Of a stretch of 64,000 nucleotides of DNA, positions 23,275-32,507 are shown piece after piece (positions within the stretch are counted from its first letter, which is position 1; each line of letters opens with the position of its first letter). The notes beneath the pieces are model-generated. The model did no database searches and was not told the origin of the DNA. It worked only from the letters and a program-made list of their open reading frames with translations. The translations under genes and the position numbers were made by a program. Source of the DNA: Promicromonospora sp. AC04 (GTDB lineage Bacteria; Actinomycetota; Actinomycetes; Actinomycetales; Cellulomonadaceae); assembly GCF_003058225.1 (NCBI RefSeq), contig NZ_QBUG01000007.1, positions 287,498-351,497 on the forward strand, read 5' to 3'.

Positions 23275-25425
<2,151 letters not shown>

Positions 25426-25435
25426 GCTGTCCGCC

Positions 25436-27253
25436 GTGACCGGACCGAGGAGTGGAGCCGGAGGGACAACACCACCGCCCCGACCAGGGCCTGATATGCC
25501 TGTGCCTGGGCCGAGGCCGGTGGTGTGGGCGCCGCGTGCGCGCATCATCGAGGTGCTCGTGCCGTACGACCCCTACGAGGAGCCCGAGCACATGCCGCTG
25601 CGCCTCGTAGGTGCGGGCGAGCCCGGGTACTGGGGCGCCGACAGCGTGCTCGGGCACGGCACCGACTACGGCTACTCGGTGGACGGCGGGCCGCTGCTGC
25701 CCGACCCGCGCAGCGTGTGGCTGCCGCAGGGCATCCACGGGCCGACCAGGGTCTTCGACCCGGCCTTCGACTGGTCCGACGGCACGTGGTCCCCGCCCGA
25801 CCTCACCACTAGCGTGCTCATGCACGTCGACACCGAGACGTTCACGCCGGAGGGCACCCTCGACGCCGCGACGGAGCTGCTGCCCACGGTCGCCGAGCTC
25901 GGGGTGCACGGCGTCGAGCTCGCGCCCGTCGCCGCGTTCGACCCGGCGCTCGGCCCCGCCCGCGGGGTGCGCCTCTACTCCGTGCACGAGCCGTACGGCG
26001 GCCCGCGCGCGCTGCAGCGCTTCGTCGACGCCGCGCACGCCGTTGGCCTCGCCGTCGTCCTGGACATCCCCTACCGCTGGGCCGTGGCCGACGAGCTCGG
26101 CCTGGAGGCCTACGGCCCGTACCTCACGGGCGGCGGCGGCCGCCCGCGCGCCCAGCGGAGCGGCGGCGACGCGGGCGAGCACGCCCTGCAGGCGATGCGC
26201 CCCCGGACCGGGCAGGTCCCGCTGGACCGGCCGCGCACCGGCCCCATCCAGCTCCGTACCGGCCAGGTCCCGACGATCGGCACGCGGGCCGGCAAGGTCC
26301 CGTCCTCGCCGACCGTCCGGACCGACTACGTGGGCGACCGCATCAACCTCGACGGCAGCGGCAGCCGCGGCCCCCGGGACTTCCTCGTGGACGATGCCAG
26401 GCACTGGCTGCGCGAGTACCACGTGGACGGCCTGGTGCTCGACGTCGACGCGCTGGTGGACCGCTCGCCCACGCCGTTCCTCGGCGAGCTGGCGGACTAC
26501 GTCGTCGGGATGGGCGAACAGCTCGAGCGCCGGTTCAGCCTCCTCGTGGACGGCCCGGGCAGGAGCGACCGGCTCACCACGATCCTGCTCCGCATCCTGT
26601 CCGGACCGGGCAAGGCGGAGGACATCCAGGCGCTGCAGATGCTCGCCGACCTGGTGCACCCGTCGGTGCGCCGGGCCTCCCGGCAGAACGGCGGGCGGCG
26701 CAACCGGGTCCGGGCCGGCGCGAGCGTGGTCGAGGACATCACCCGGCTCCCCGCCGCCCAGCTCACGGTCCCGTGGGCGGGCGAGGAGAGCCCCGCCACG
26801 GCGCTCCTCGGCGTCGACGACGTCGACATCCGGGCCAGCGTGCTCGCCACCGTCATCCTCGCGGGCAACCCGCTGGTCCTCGACACCGTGCACGCCCCGG
26901 TCGTCCCGCGCAACCAGAACGAGCAGCGCCTGGCCCGCTGGGCGCACGAGCTGATCGCGATCCGCCGGGCCATCGCCGAGGAGCTGGACCTCCCGCTGGA
27001 GGTCCGGTCCACCGCCGACCGTTCGGTCATCGCGGTGCTGCGGGGCAGCCTGGCATTCGTGCTCAACACGGGCCACGGCCTCGCCGCCCTGCGCCTGGGG
27101 AGCCTGCTGCGGCCCGCCGAGGGCGCGATCAGGGCGCCGCTGCCCGCGGCCTTCAAGCTGGCTGCCGCCTGGGAGCCGGGCGCCACCCGCCTGGTCGGCG
27201 ACACCCTCACGGTCCCGCCCAGGATGACCGCCGTGCTGCGCGCGGAGACCTGA
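25436..27253 (+). CDS. TreZ-like (maltooligosyltrehalose trehalohydrolase) protein that lacks catalytic residues
   Basis: A 605-residue GH13-like protein that follows TreZ from end to end: VVWAPRARIIEV, DPRSVWLPQGIHGPTRVFD, FTPEGTLDAATELLPTVAELG, then AYGPYLTGG and RINLDGSG followed by REYHVDGLVLDVDAL. Key positions have changed. The Arg two before the nucleophile is Val334, although Asp336 remains. The acid/base Glu region reads LLVDGPGRSDR with no Glu, and the HD pair of the transition-state Asp is missing in RASRQNGGRRNR. Between YGPYLTGG and DYVGD is a Pro/Gly-rich insertion of about 60 residues with RTGQVP-type repeats. Probably a non-catalytic glycan-binding or regulatory relative; no treY follows. 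Confidence 0.75.
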   Translation: MTGPRSGAGGTTPPPRPGPDMPVPGPRPVVWAPRARIIEVLVPYDPYEEPEHMPLRLVGAGEPGYWGADSVLGHGTDYGYSVDGGPLLPDPRSVWLPQGIHGPTRVFDPAFDWSDGTWSPPDLTTSVLMHVDTETFTPEGTLDAATELLPTVAELGVHGVELAPVAAFDPALGPARGVRLYSVHEPYGGPRALQRFVDAAHAVGLAVVLDIPYRWAVADELGLEAYGPYLTGGGGRPRAQRSGGDAGEHALQAMRPRTGQVPLDRPRTGPIQLRTGQVPTIGTRAGKVPSSPTVRTDYVGDRINLDGSGSRGPRDFLVDDARHWLREYHVDGLVLDVDALVDRSPTPFLGELADYVVGMGEQLERRFSLLVDGPGRSDRLTTILLRILSGPGKAEDIQALQMLADLVHPSVRRASRQNGGRRNRVRAGASVVEDITRLPAAQLTVPWAGEESPATALLGVDDVDIRASVLATVILAGNPLVLDTVHAPVVPRNQNEQRLARWAHELIAIRRAIAEELDLPLEVRSTADRSVIAVLRGSLAFVLNTGHGLAALRLGSLLRPAEGAIRAPLPAAFKLAAAWEPGATRLVGDTLTVPPRMTAVLRAET

Positions 27254-27312: not shown

Positions 27313-28173
27313 ATGGCAAAGACGCCGGAGCAGCTGTGGAAGACCCCGGCCGACGAGGCCCTGCGCTGGGTGCGTGGCACGGACCTGAGTGCCCTGGACC
27401 AGGCCGCGACGCCCGGCTGGCGGGGCAGCCGGGCCGAAGGGGAGGAGCTCATGGCCGTCCGCGGGCACGAGCTGGCCGACCTGCAGGAGCGCCTCTTCGC
27501 GCACGGCCGCACCGGCGGCGACCGGTCCGTGCTGCTCGTGCTGCAGGGCCTGGACACCTCGGGCAAGGGCGGGATCGTGCAGCACGTCGTGGGCATGGTG
27601 GACCCGCAGGGCGTGATGCACCGCGGGTTCGGCGTGCCCACCGAGGAGGAGCGGGAGCACGGTTACCTGTGGCGGATCCGCAACGCGCTGCCCGTGCCCG
27701 GCTACGTCGGCGTGTTCGACCGGTCGCACCACGAGCAGGTCCTGGTGGTCCGCGTCAACCGGCTGGAGCCGGTCAAGACGTGGCGCAGGCACTACCGCGA
27801 GCTCAACGAGTTCGAGGCCGAGGTGGCGGCGTCGGGCACCGCGATCGTGAAGGTGGCACTCGTCGTCTCGGCCGACGAGCAGAAGAAGCGCCTGGCCAAA
27901 CGGCTCGACCGGCCGGACAAGCACTGGAAGTACAACCCGAACGACATCGACGTACGCCTGAAGCTCCCGGAGTACGTGGCGGCCTACCAGGAGATGCTTG
28001 ACCGCACGTCCACAAAGGAGGCGCCTTGGTACGTCGTCCCGGCGGACCGGAAGTGGTACTCCCGCCTGGCCGTCACCGAGCTGCTGACCGGCGCCCTGCG
28101 GTCGCTGGACCTGGGCTGGCCGCCCGCCAGCTTCGACGTGGCGGCGGAGAAGGCGCGCCTGGCGGCGACCTGA
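27313..28173 (+). CDS. ppk2: PPK2 family polyphosphate kinase
   Basis: A 286-residue enzyme that transfers phosphate between polyphosphate and nucleotides. Walker A is GLDTSGKGG (79-87), the lid-region HRGFGVPTEEEREHGYLWR is typical of PPK2, and Walker B is in YVGVFDRSHHEQ. KHWKYNPNDIDVR and APWYVVPADRKWYSR close the core. Normal PPK2 members have WYE after FDRS; here it is HHE. A GGAGAGG site precedes the ATG. Whether it makes ATP from ADP or from AMP cannot be told. It ends at a hairpin shared with zapE. Confidence 0.92.
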   Translation: MAKTPEQLWKTPADEALRWVRGTDLSALDQAATPGWRGSRAEGEELMAVRGHELADLQERLFAHGRTGGDRSVLLVLQGLDTSGKGGIVQHVVGMVDPQGVMHRGFGVPTEEEREHGYLWRIRNALPVPGYVGVFDRSHHEQVLVVRVNRLEPVKTWRRHYRELNEFEAEVAASGTAIVKVALVVSADEQKKRLAKRLDRPDKHWKYNPNDIDVRLKLPEYVAAYQEMLDRTSTKEAPWYVVPADRKWYSRLAVTELLTGALRSLDLGWPPASFDVAAEKARLAAT

Positions 28174-28216: not shown

Positions 28217-29263
28217 TCAGACGAGCTTGCGCCCTTCCTCGGCCAGGGCGCCCAGGCGGGACAGTGCCCGGTAGTACTTCTTGCGGTACCCGCCGGCGAG
28301 CATCTCCTCGGTGAACAGGCCGCGGGTGTCGCCCGAGCCGCCGAGCAGCACCGGCACGTCCCGGTCGTAGAGGCGGTCCACGAGGACCACCAGGCGCAGC
28401 GCCACGGCCTGCGCCGTCACGGGGTGCACCCCCGTCAGGGCGACGACGGAGACGCCGTCGAGCAGCGCGCCGTAGCGGCTGGGGTGCACGGTGGCGAGGT
28501 GTTCCAGCAGGTCGTCGAACGCGTCCAGCGTGGCGCCCGGGCGGGCGGCCGCGGCGACGACCTCGTCCTCGGTCAGCGGCTCGGAGTCGGTCACGACGTC
28601 GCGATGGCGGTAGTCCTCGCCGTCGACCCGCAGGGTCTCGAAGCGGTCGGACAGGGCCTTGATCTCGCGCTGGAAGTCCTGGGCGGCGAAGCGGCCCTCG
28701 CCCAGCGCGTCGGGCAGCGTGTTCGACGTCGCAGCGAGCGCCACGCCCCGGTCCGCGAGCTCGCGCATGAGGCGGGACATCAGCGTCGTGTCGCCCGCGT
28801 CGTCGAGCTCGAACTCGTCGATGCAGACGAGCTTCTTGGCGGCGAGCGCCTCGACGGTCGGGAGGAAGCCGAGCGCCCCGACGAGGTTCGTGTACTCGAC
28901 GAACGTGCCGTACGCGGCCTTGTCCGGGCCGAGCGCCTCCCCGACAGCGTGGGCGAGCGAGGTGAGCAGGTGGGTCTTGCCGACGCCGAAGCCGCCGTCG
29001 AGGTAGACCGCGGGGGCGGCCTGGCGGCGGGCGAACAGGCCGCGCTTCGGGGCCGTGATCTGCTGGGCGATCTCCGTCAGGCGGGCGAGCGCTCGGCCCT
29101 GGCTGGGGTGTGCCGGGTTGGCGCGGTAGGTCGCGAACCGGGCCTGCGCGAAGTGGCGCGGGGGTACCAGGTCGGTGACGAGCCGGTCGACAGCGACCTG
29201 CGGCCGGACCGCGCACAGGGCGGTCTGAACGGTCTGGCTGTCAGTGGTGGTAGCGACTGTCAC
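28217..29263 (-). CDS. zapE: Cell division protein ZapE (AFG1-like ATPase)
   Basis: A 348-residue cytoplasmic P-loop ATPase of the AFG1/ZapE family, which in Escherichia coli associates with the Z-ring under stress. Walker A is GGFGVGKTHL (90-99) and Walker B is LVCIDEFELDDAGD; LMRELADRGVALAATSNTLP carries sensor 1. The family signature FQREIKALSDRFE and DYRHRD are present. A minus-strand TAATCT box lies 8 bases before the GTG start. Confidence 0.92.
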   Translation of the reverse strand: MTVATTTDSQTVQTALCAVRPQVAVDRLVTDLVPPRHFAQARFATYRANPAHPSQGRALARLTEIAQQITAPKRGLFARRQAAPAVYLDGGFGVGKTHLLTSLAHAVGEALGPDKAAYGTFVEYTNLVGALGFLPTVEALAAKKLVCIDEFELDDAGDTTLMSRLMRELADRGVALAATSNTLPDALGEGRFAAQDFQREIKALSDRFETLRVDGEDYRHRDVVTDSEPLTEDEVVAAAARPGATLDAFDDLLEHLATVHPSRYGALLDGVSVVALTGVHPVTAQAVALRLVVLVDRLYDRDVPVLLGGSGDTRGLFTEEMLAGGYRKKYYRALSRLGALAEEGRKLV

Positions 29264-31202: not shown

Positions 31203-32507
31203 TCAGTACCCGGTCGCCGTCGGCTCCGGGTAGAACTGCGCGTACTTGCGGCGGTAGTTCTGCGTGATCCCCTCGACGATGAGCCGGCGCTTGAGACCGG
31301 AGTCGGCGTCGTACTTGAGGGGGTTGACGACGTTGCCGCTCGCCCTGAGCGCCTTGAGCCGGCTCTTGAGCTCCGGGTCCAGGACGTACTTCGTCAGGAG
31401 GCCGAACGGCACCACTGTGTACAGCACCTCGTGCACGGCCCGCACCGGGCGGATCGGGCGGTGCAGCACCCAGTCCTCGACAAGCACGCGGGCCACGTTG
31501 GCCCCGCCTGCCGTGACGTAGTAGTTGTTCCGGCCGATGCGCGGGTTGACCTCGAAGTACACGTGCTGGCCCGTGCGCGGGTCCAGCTTGTAGTCGAAGT
31601 TGGCGAAGCCCACGTAGCCGGTCGTGTCGAGGAACCGGGTGGCGGCGTCCATGGCGTCGTCGTACGCCTCGACCAGGATCGCGGCCGGGATGCCGAGCGT
31701 GCCCGGCGTGTGCTCCTCCAGCAGCACCCGGCCGGTGGCCAGGAGCGTCACCTCGCCCGTCGTGTCGCGGTAGGCGGTCAGGGACCGCATCTGCGTCTCG
31801 TCGCCCGGGATGAACTCCTGCACCAGGAACGTGCCCGGGTACTTGGCGTCCGCGAGGTTGCCCAGCAGCTCGTCCAGCTCGGCGCGGGAGTCGATGTGGT
31901 GGATCTTCGCCTTGCCGGGGAAGTCCACGTAGTACCACTCGGCGCTGTTGGACGGCTTGCCGACAACGGGGAACTGGAGGTCCACCTCGAGGGCCGGCAC
32001 GGCGGCGCGGCCGCCGTCGGCCACCAGCTTGGCGACGTCCACCGCCACCGTGCGCGGCGTCGGGATGCCGAGCTGGTCGCAGACCTCCGCGAAGCCCTCC
32101 TTGCTGCTCACCTGTTCCAGGACCGGCAGGGACGGGTAGGGCAGCACGTAGCCCGCCGCCTCCAGCCGGTCCCGGTTCACGATGACGGTGCGCACGTGCC
32201 AGTCCGCGTTGGTGAGCAGCACGAGCACCTTGTCCCGGTGCTGCTGCGCGATGCCCTCGAGGGTCGAGAGGAACACGTCCACCTCGTCCAGGCCGGGCAC
32301 CACCACGTTCTCGGCGATCGCCGAGTCCTGCATCGCGCGGGTGGCGACCTTGGAGAGCACCACCGCGTGGGTGCCGTACTGCTCGTGGAACGCACGCACC
32401 AGGGCGTACATCCCGACGTCGCCGCCGACCCCCACCACCATCATCTCCGGGACGGGCTGCTCCCCGCCGCCGTCCACCGGCCCCTTGTCCGCGGGGTATC
32501 CCCTCAC
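31203..32507 (-). CDS. ATP-grasp carboxylate-amine ligase (D-aspartate ligase type)
   Basis: A 434-residue ATP-grasp ligase. After an N-terminal PreATP-grasp domain (VVGVGGDVGMYALVRAF) come the ATP-binding parts FPVVGKPSNSAEWYYV and GTFLVQEFIPGDETQM, and the metal-binding motif GYVGFANFDYKL with VYFEVNPRIGRNNYY. The sequence type resembles ligases that add D-Asp or a similar acid to the lysine of peptidoglycan precursors; this assignment is inference. The GTG start overlaps the gnd stop codon (GTGA at 32504-32507). A FemX-like bridge enzyme is encoded at 36058. Confidence 0.78.
   Translation of the reverse strand: MRGYPADKGPVDGGGEQPVPEMMVVGVGGDVGMYALVRAFHEQYGTHAVVLSKVATRAMQDSAIAENVVVPGLDEVDVFLSTLEGIAQQHRDKVLVLLTNADWHVRTVIVNRDRLEAAGYVLPYPSLPVLEQVSSKEGFAEVCDQLGIPTPRTVAVDVAKLVADGGRAAVPALEVDLQFPVVGKPSNSAEWYYVDFPGKAKIHHIDSRAELDELLGNLADAKYPGTFLVQEFIPGDETQMRSLTAYRDTTGEVTLLATGRVLLEEHTPGTLGIPAAILVEAYDDAMDAATRFLDTTGYVGFANFDYKLDPRTGQHVYFEVNPRIGRNNYYVTAGGANVARVLVEDWVLHRPIRPVRAVHEVLYTVVPFGLLTKYVLDPELKSRLKALRASGNVVNPLKYDADSGLKRRLIVEGITQNYRRKYAQFYPEPTATGY

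Follow-up and report, generated by a model that had tools for sequence, protein, structure and literature searches.

The closest described relative of the protein analysed here is the trehalohydrolase TreZ (TIGR02402; PDB 2bhu and 3vgb), with which it shares an ancestry evident from synteny and trees, the overall fold and the nucleophile Asp. It differs from TreZ in that the Arg, Asn-His, Glu and HDQ elements have been lost or replaced, about 100 residues are missing, barrel strand 6 is unseen in models, its own genome carries no TreY over the profile cut-off, and it likely has a promoter of its own. A second parallel is plant ISA2, also a GH13 glucan-enzyme relative long retained after the loss of catalytic residues. 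However, ISA2 is a debranching-enzyme paralogue, which according to the accessible text of one source is bound by ISA1 (PMC12510319), whereas our protein derives from TreZ and, unlike an ISA2-type subunit, survives without the neighbouring debranching enzyme GlgX1 in 15 of 31 genomes. In plants, glucan-enzyme families are known to include noncatalytic members, and the same text describes the reason why a noncatalytic isoamylase stays under selection as not understood (PMC12510319). As for bacterial debranching enzymes, GlgX of S. venezuelae is described in the accessible part of another source as being activated by c-di-GMP (PMC9530166). A search of titles and abstract openings, with subscription papers mostly outside its coverage, found no description of an inactive TreZ family.

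The gene in question, treZ', encodes a degenerate TreZ-like protein of 605 residues and starts with GTG at position 25436 of the window, i.e. of the whole stretch of 64,000 nucleotides that was analysed, which belongs to contig C7 of a 6.85 Mb genome of Promicromonospora. The reading frame (25436-27253, forward strand) and its coordinates were found to be exact on re-check. Its upstream neighbour on the same strand, which we named glgX1 (23275-25425, with the start set at MQTWPGRP, the beginning of the profile match), encodes a complete glycogen debranching enzyme that scored 987.8 bits in a profile search against a cut-off of 640.9. Downstream are a PPK2-like gene (27313-28173, forward strand) and a convergent gene for a ZapE/AFG1-like ATPase (28217-29263, reverse strand), both syntenic in relatives, where the latter serves as the locus marker. 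These two labels, as well as the CBS-like, CGL-like and SDR-like labels used below, are putative assignments made by reading the sequences. Elsewhere, a second GlgX is encoded at G000:C12:41741-43861 (752.8 bits), and in the 13 genomes of genus g21 that carry treZ' the sole GlgX found at the search threshold scores near this value. Also of note is the window protein at 31203-32507 (reverse strand), which has two adjacent relatives (~40-59% identical) past zapE in many of the fetched loci (L079-L085 and other g21 and g9 loci).

A first-pass annotation of this DNA had described a full-length TreZ relative that has lost its catalytic residues and gained a repeat insertion next to glgX. This observation as a whole was confirmed. 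The accompanying interpretation, a retained, well-formed but inactive protein next to a debranching enzyme that may be a regulator, scaffold or glycogen-binding partner, was supported in its first part; of the possible roles, partnership with the adjacent debranching enzyme is not favoured, and binding of glycogen or oligosaccharides appears likeliest.

The best profile match of TreZ' is TreZ TIGR02402 (EC 3.2.1.141) with 183.5 bits and an E-value of 5e-54, which does not reach the cut-off of 538.8. By sequence, the closest solved structures are those of TreZ from D. radiodurans (2bhu) and from Sulfolobus. In the latter enzyme D252 is presumably the nucleophile and E283 the acid/base. Residue 336 of the window protein aligns with D252 and V334 with R250; mutations of D252 and E283 are named in the titles of PDB entries 3vgd, 3vge and 3vgg.

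A comparison at the three catalytic carboxylates, which the first-pass annotation had proposed as a check, bore out its statements on the Val and the HD and nearly so that on the Glu. In an alignment of 69 sequences (A1, comprising 18 TreZ' orthologues, 46 intact TreZ and five g23 rows that were set apart), the nucleophile Asp336 is retained and invariant in all 18 orthologues. It lies in a remnant of GH13 region II, HVDGLVLDVDAL (26420-26455, forward strand), in which the Arg two positions before the nucleophile is Val334 in the window protein, exactly as had been noted. The acid/base position is occupied by Glu in 46 of 46 intact TreZ and by Asp372 in 18 of 18 TreZ'. Hence, the Glu is indeed missing as such, but the change is better described as a Glu-to-Asp replacement. 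Asp372 opens the clade motif DGPGRSDRL (D372-L380; 26549-26575, forward strand), which takes the place of the acid/base Glu region in the alignment. The HDQ segment with the third carboxylate is absent from the TreZ' rows, in agreement with the reported loss of its HD, and about 100 residues around it are missing as well. For this reason, "full length" is too strong a description of the sequence match, although the match of the predicted fold extends over residues 20-602 (see below).

Further changes are found at other strand ends. The Asn-His pair of GH13 region I is replaced by R214 and W215 of the sequence PYRW (P212-W215; 26069-26080, forward strand), which follows strand 3. Where TreZ has NHDQ, the alignment and the structural model place VEDITRLPAA (residues 432-441; 26729-26758, forward strand) at the probable end of strand 7; the alignment of this stretch with intact TreZ is uncertain, and its T436 and R437 are invariant in 18 of 18 orthologues. 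VLDTVHAP (residues 481-488; 26876-26899, forward strand), assigned to the end of strand 8 from the same two sources, shows no variation at V481, L482, D483, H486 and P488 in any of the 18. Taken together, the Arg-to-Val and Glu-to-Asp changes and the loss of the Asn-His pair and of the HDQ segment should abolish trehalohydrolysis. Judged by the sequence criteria for an active TreZ, TreZ' has kept only the nucleophile, and the clade-wide replacement of the catalytic residues supports the earlier description of the protein as inactive.

There are 179 columns that are at least 90% conserved in the 46 intact TreZ. Of these, the 18 TreZ' retain 51 at the same level and have lost 24 to deletion; 44 are variable, in 20 a different residue has become fixed (at least 85%), often at a catalytic strand end, and most of the others have the same majority residue at less than 90%. 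The residues that are invariant in all TreZ' and changed with respect to intact TreZ include D132, R214, W215, D372, G373, S377, D378, R437, D483 and H486; R379 and T436 are likewise invariant. An exact DNA search for DGPGRSDRL in a partial sample of the order matched five of 396 genomes, namely G000 and four g21 genomes, which all belong to this family, and none with the reversed control, although such a search overlooks the variants DGPGLSDRL (g14) and DGVGRSDRL (one g21 genome).

An AlphaFold2 model based on alignment A1 had a mean pLDDT of 84.2 and a pTM of 0.85, with residues 243-295 and 413-429 disordered. VIA-align 2 ranked TreZ first among known structures (2bhz, Z 30.3, rmsd 2.9, 460 aligned residues spanning 20-602; 3vgg, 29.6), followed by branching enzymes (27.6) and GlgX (27.2). 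TreZ was also the top match in Foldseek, where the structures superposed only loosely (TM 0.62, rmsd 8.3 to 2bhu). A second model, that of a g21 orthologue, had a pLDDT of 88.2 and a pTM of 0.90 and showed the identical order of elements, in which strand 5 is followed by two helices, a disordered stretch and the strand that we take as strand 7. Strand 6 of the barrel was seen in neither of the two models. TreZ' is therefore predicted to have the TreZ fold, apparently without barrel strand 6.

In these models the new clade-wide residues, DGPGRSDRL included, are predicted to lie at the strand ends that line the GH13 pocket. If pocket positions are defined as those within nine positions after a barrel strand, 63 of the 311 barrel positions qualify, and these hold 16 of the 33 clade-specific fixed residues (p 1e-4). 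The enrichment is milder for all invariant barrel residues (21 of 69, p 0.015). Both p values are only indicative because the pocket was defined after the motifs had been seen. The profile and structure searches list only relatives from the alpha-amylase superfamily, and therefore no particular new reaction is indicated.

The RTGQVP-type repeats reported earlier are present in an Arg/Pro/Gly insertion between strands 3 and 4 (residues 236-298; 26141-26329, forward strand), most of which is predicted to be disordered. Among the 18 aligned orthologues its long form is restricted to g1, g3 and g14, and because 13 of the 18 are without it, the insertion does not belong to the core of the protein. 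On the same grounds the idea that it is central to the function of the protein was rejected. In Promicromonospora, Myceligenerans and g3 the repeat loop forms a flexible basic extension that is limited to these lineages.

Sequence evolution within the genus shows that treZ' is maintained. Its dN/dS is 0.125 (45 pairs from ten Promicromonospora genomes), and the values of other genes (7 to 10 genomes each) are 0.113-0.158 for the CBS-like, CGL-like, GlgX and ZapE-like genes (0.113 for CBS-like, 0.158 for GlgX) and 0.300-0.354 for the PPK2-like and SDR-like genes. By region, dN/dS is 0.063 in residues 26-125, 0.113 in the repeat insertion, 0.055 in residues 299-385, which contain the nucleophile and DGPGRSDRL, and 0.229 in residues 431-515. 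The strongest constraint within the genus is found in the Pro-rich N-terminal 25 residues (25436-25510; dN/dS 0.033), where the confidence of the model is mostly low. Seven other TreZ' pairs gave 0.106-0.391, four g23 pairs 0.204-0.364 and four pairs of intact TreZ 0.162-0.233; TreZ' pairs from genomes without GlgX1 fell at 0.209-0.391. As the TreZ' pairs are comparable with intact TreZ, the constraint is ordinary: treZ' is under ordinary purifying selection, genomes without GlgX1 included. The listed treZ' matches contain no internal stops, and identity to the Myceligenerans orthologue is 64.5% for TreZ' and 82.7% for GlgX. With orthologues in 13 of 13 congeners and a confidently predicted TreZ fold, the claim of a retained and well-formed protein holds. 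A protein under conserving selection that has lost its catalytic residues is a pseudoenzyme, and TreZ', presumably inactive, answers to this description.

Search matches and fetched loci place treZ' in 40 of 150 genomes of the family and in seven genera, namely g1 (13), g3 (2), g14 (4), g4 (2), g9 (5 of 11), g18 (1) and g21 (13 of 15); among the 40, treZ' of G039 is truncated where its contig ends (L162) and that of G004 is split across two contigs. In a named collection, orthologues were found in ten loci of Promicromonospora, two of which are incomplete, with 90-95% identity, and in one of Myceligenerans with 63%. Six of the 11 g9 genomes gave no treZ' match in the search, four of these six being less than 80% complete, and two g21 genomes (G140, locus L151; G144, locus L150) have glgX1-ppk2-zapE with no treZ' in between and intact TreYZ elsewhere. 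Hence, treZ' is not essential in these lineages.

Comparison of the loci reveals where the gene came from. An intact glgX-treY-treZ-ppk2-zapE locus is found in g7, g11 and g8, with variants that are without ppk2 (g20) or, in the fetched stretch, without zapE (g13). The order is glgX-treZ'-ppk2-zapE in g1, g3, g4 and part of g9, and the same without ppk2 in g14 and g18. In g21 and two g9 genomes treZ' remains and glgX1 is missing; Pfam scans of the frames upstream in two g21 loci gave unrelated genes. NCBIfam assigned no family to the frames L091:3043-5337, L079:1046-3484, L085:2024-3541, L165:464-2557 and L165:3066-5861, which look like wrong frames. Thus, treZ' is the former treZ of the glgX-treY-treZ locus after the loss of treY, and it adjoins glgX1 because this arrangement was inherited from the ancestral locus.

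TreY and TreZ exceed their cut-offs in 94 and 91 of the 150 family genomes, respectively. In the genome that carries the window, a profile search found neither of the two over its cut-off, and the separate intact treY-treZ pair that the first-pass annotation had suggested looking for did not turn up. The same genome has TreS and GlgB above their cut-offs and an OtsA-like match just below (551.1 against 564.85). Both TreY and TreZ exceed their cut-offs elsewhere in 10 of 13 genomes of the genus, and the two genes are side by side in all three congener loci that were fetched (L103-L105). A separate treY-treZ pair is present in L103-L108 and L152, and its TreZ groups in the tree with L131 from another family (99/96). 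The congener pair may therefore have been re-acquired.

A second degenerate TreZ occupies the same locus in g23 (L094-L097, L114, L163 and L164). It shares with treZ' the loss of treY and of the HDQ segment and, in the five loci whose residues were examined (L094-L097 and L114, from the seven g23 genomes sampled), the His-to-Asp change at the D132 position (5 of 5). None of the seven is among the 94 genomes with TreY. However, the g23 protein degenerated differently: in these five loci it has lost the nucleophile (RIARVQDL) and kept the Glu (GECDT or GECET), whereas TreZ' has kept Asp336 and replaced the Glu by Asp372. Its neighbour genes place g23 with g7/g11. In the TreZ tree, g23 and the main treZ' clade lie together on one side of a branch with support of 100/99. 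For a first tree, the program had given a warning about the meeting of long branches. In contrast, g23 groups with g7/g11 in the tree of the ZapE-like gene (96/87) and in that of GlgX plus the ZapE-like gene (99/98), where the two g21 rows come from genomes without TreZ'. A single clade was not rejected by the AU test (p 0.131 for the ZapE-like gene and 0.254 for GlgX plus the ZapE-like gene). In summary, the gene trees disagree on one versus two origins of degenerate TreZ.

The start of treZ' differs from that of its intact relatives as well. The putative -10 box TAGGCT (25423-25428, forward strand), in which the leading TAG is the glgX1 stop codon, begins 13 bases before the GTG and is separated from it by seven bases. 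The overlap of this presumed promoter with the stop codon had thus been correctly noted before, and the box is conserved: TAGGCT, seven bases and GTG recur in nine scanned Promicromonospora loci (L047-L054 and L056), and seven scanned g21 loci have TATGGT, TAGAGT, TACAGT or TAGGGT. Leaderless genes of actinobacteria are marked by TANNNT some 12 bases ahead of the start codon, according to the accessible part of PMC3160421. A strict scan, which required TANNNT, a spacing of 6-7 bases and then an in-frame ATG or GTG, from which L018-L028 and L153-L161 were left out and in which L055 and L077 represent one genome, matched 25 of 28 TreZ' loci (the misses being L088 of g18, L080 of g4 and L087 of g9), 0 of 46 intact TreZ, 0 of 5 g23 loci and 133 of 7900 random positions. 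A looser scan of 25 loci, with a spacing of 4-9 and TTG starts allowed too, matched two of five g23 loci (the near-identical L094 and L095) and none of four in g7/g11. This pattern suggests that treZ' has its own leaderless promoter.

The explanation that we favour, with a probability of roughly one half, sees TreZ' as a trehalohydrolase that has been neofunctionalised and that now binds, without cutting it, an alpha-glucan or a related ligand. From an ancestral glgX1-treY-treZ locus, with ppk2 and zapE downstream in most of its forms, one lineage lost treY, and its treZ lost the hydrolytic residues and the ~100 residues around HDQ. The protein then stayed under purifying selection, with a new fixed set at the barrel mouth (D132, R214, W215, D336, D372, S377, D378, R379, T436, R437, D483 and H486) and a TANNNT box placed directly before the start. 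On this view treZ' would have given up the hydrolysis of maltooligosyltrehalose, would be transcribed alone, as a leaderless message, and would act as a non-cutting binding protein. Candidate ligands of its rebuilt barrel mouth are alpha-glucans, maltooligosaccharides and trehalose, which come first because of the descent from TreZ, besides other small molecules, and the protein may report or tether its ligand within glycogen or trehalose metabolism. Glucan binding appears likeliest in view of the predicted fold, the origin and the location of the gene. In favour of this explanation are the synteny of intact and degenerate loci, the absence of TreY over cut-off from the own genome, purifying selection, the clade-specific residues after the barrel strands, the predicted TreZ fold, the start box and the survival without GlgX1. 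Against it count the carboxylates D336 and D372 at the two catalytic positions, with which residual or new catalysis is conceivable, the ordinary level of constraint, an identity to the Myceligenerans orthologue well below that of GlgX, the losses in g21 and g9, the late definition of the pocket, the loose Foldseek superposition and the g23 hits of the looser promoter scan.

A broader alternative, which we regard as tentative, is that treZ' has become a new enzyme or a small-molecule receptor on a GH13 scaffold. Once treY was gone, the site would have been rebuilt on a barrel of perhaps seven strands, with a conserved pocket made of DGPGRSDRL and its companions, and the gene would have left its operon by means of the leaderless promoter, g23 having dismantled the same gene differently. 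Taken by itself, the idea that the rebuilt pocket has acquired another catalytic activity, with a sugar or sugar phosphate as the substrate, is unlikely. It is nevertheless the main rival because Asp336 and Asp372 sit at two catalytic strand ends, and they are accompanied by D378, R379, R437, D483, H486 and W215, charged and aromatic residues that are fixed in 18 of 18 orthologues from seven genera at the usual position of the active site in barrel enzymes. However, TreZ' has lost the Arg of GH13, the Glu that serves as general acid and the Asp of HDQ, strand 6 is unseen in both models, and the searches return nothing beyond the alpha-amylase superfamily.

Less probable again is the proposal closest to the first-pass annotation, that of a non-catalytic GH13 subunit which binds GlgX1 and tunes debranching in the way ISA2 may do for ISA1, the precedent being ISA1 binding its noncatalytic paralogue, as given in the accessible text of PMC12510319. 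The two genes do adjoin in g1, g3, g14, g4, g18 and part of g9, and since a GlgX scoring above the cut-off turned up in every one of 44 searched genomes, a role with another GlgX is conceivable. Nevertheless, among the 31 of 40 treZ' genomes in which GlgX1 was looked for, it is present in 16 (971-1009 bits) and missing from 15 (13 of g21, G044 and G060), whereas G140 and G144 have kept glgX1 and not treZ'; furthermore, the adjacency is inherited and a promoter of its own seems to be present. GlgX1 is thus no obligate partner of treZ'; an obligate partnership was rejected as the general role, and the suggested association with the adjacent debranching enzyme is not favoured.

That treZ' is a relic of treZ in slow decay, preserved by chance or for the sake of its DNA, is highly improbable and the reading as a decaying pseudogene was rejected: treY has been lost, TreZ' has changed faster than GlgX between genera and it is absent from G140 and G144, but there are no internal stops, selection within the genus is purifying, residues are fixed in 18 of 18 orthologues, and the start and the -10 box are conserved. 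We give equally little credence to a still-active trehalohydrolase with an unusual catalytic set, for which the retained nucleophile and the carboxylate of D372 speak, since the remaining catalytic elements are lost or replaced, the profile score is about a third of what the cut-off demands, the genome itself has no TreY over cut-off to supply the substrate, and all ten congeners with TreY also hold a TreZ over the cut-off.

These findings bear on how enzymes are converted and on how genomes are read. One syntenic locus holds the intact relative, the source operon, two degenerate lineages, losses of the neighbouring enzyme and losses of the protein itself, and with all these states at a single locus the conversion of an enzyme can be tested step by step. 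A "TreZ" label assigned by similarity may mislead in genomes that are unable to run the TreYZ pathway. In a soil actinomycete and its relatives, treZ' has been preserved, probably for a new job.
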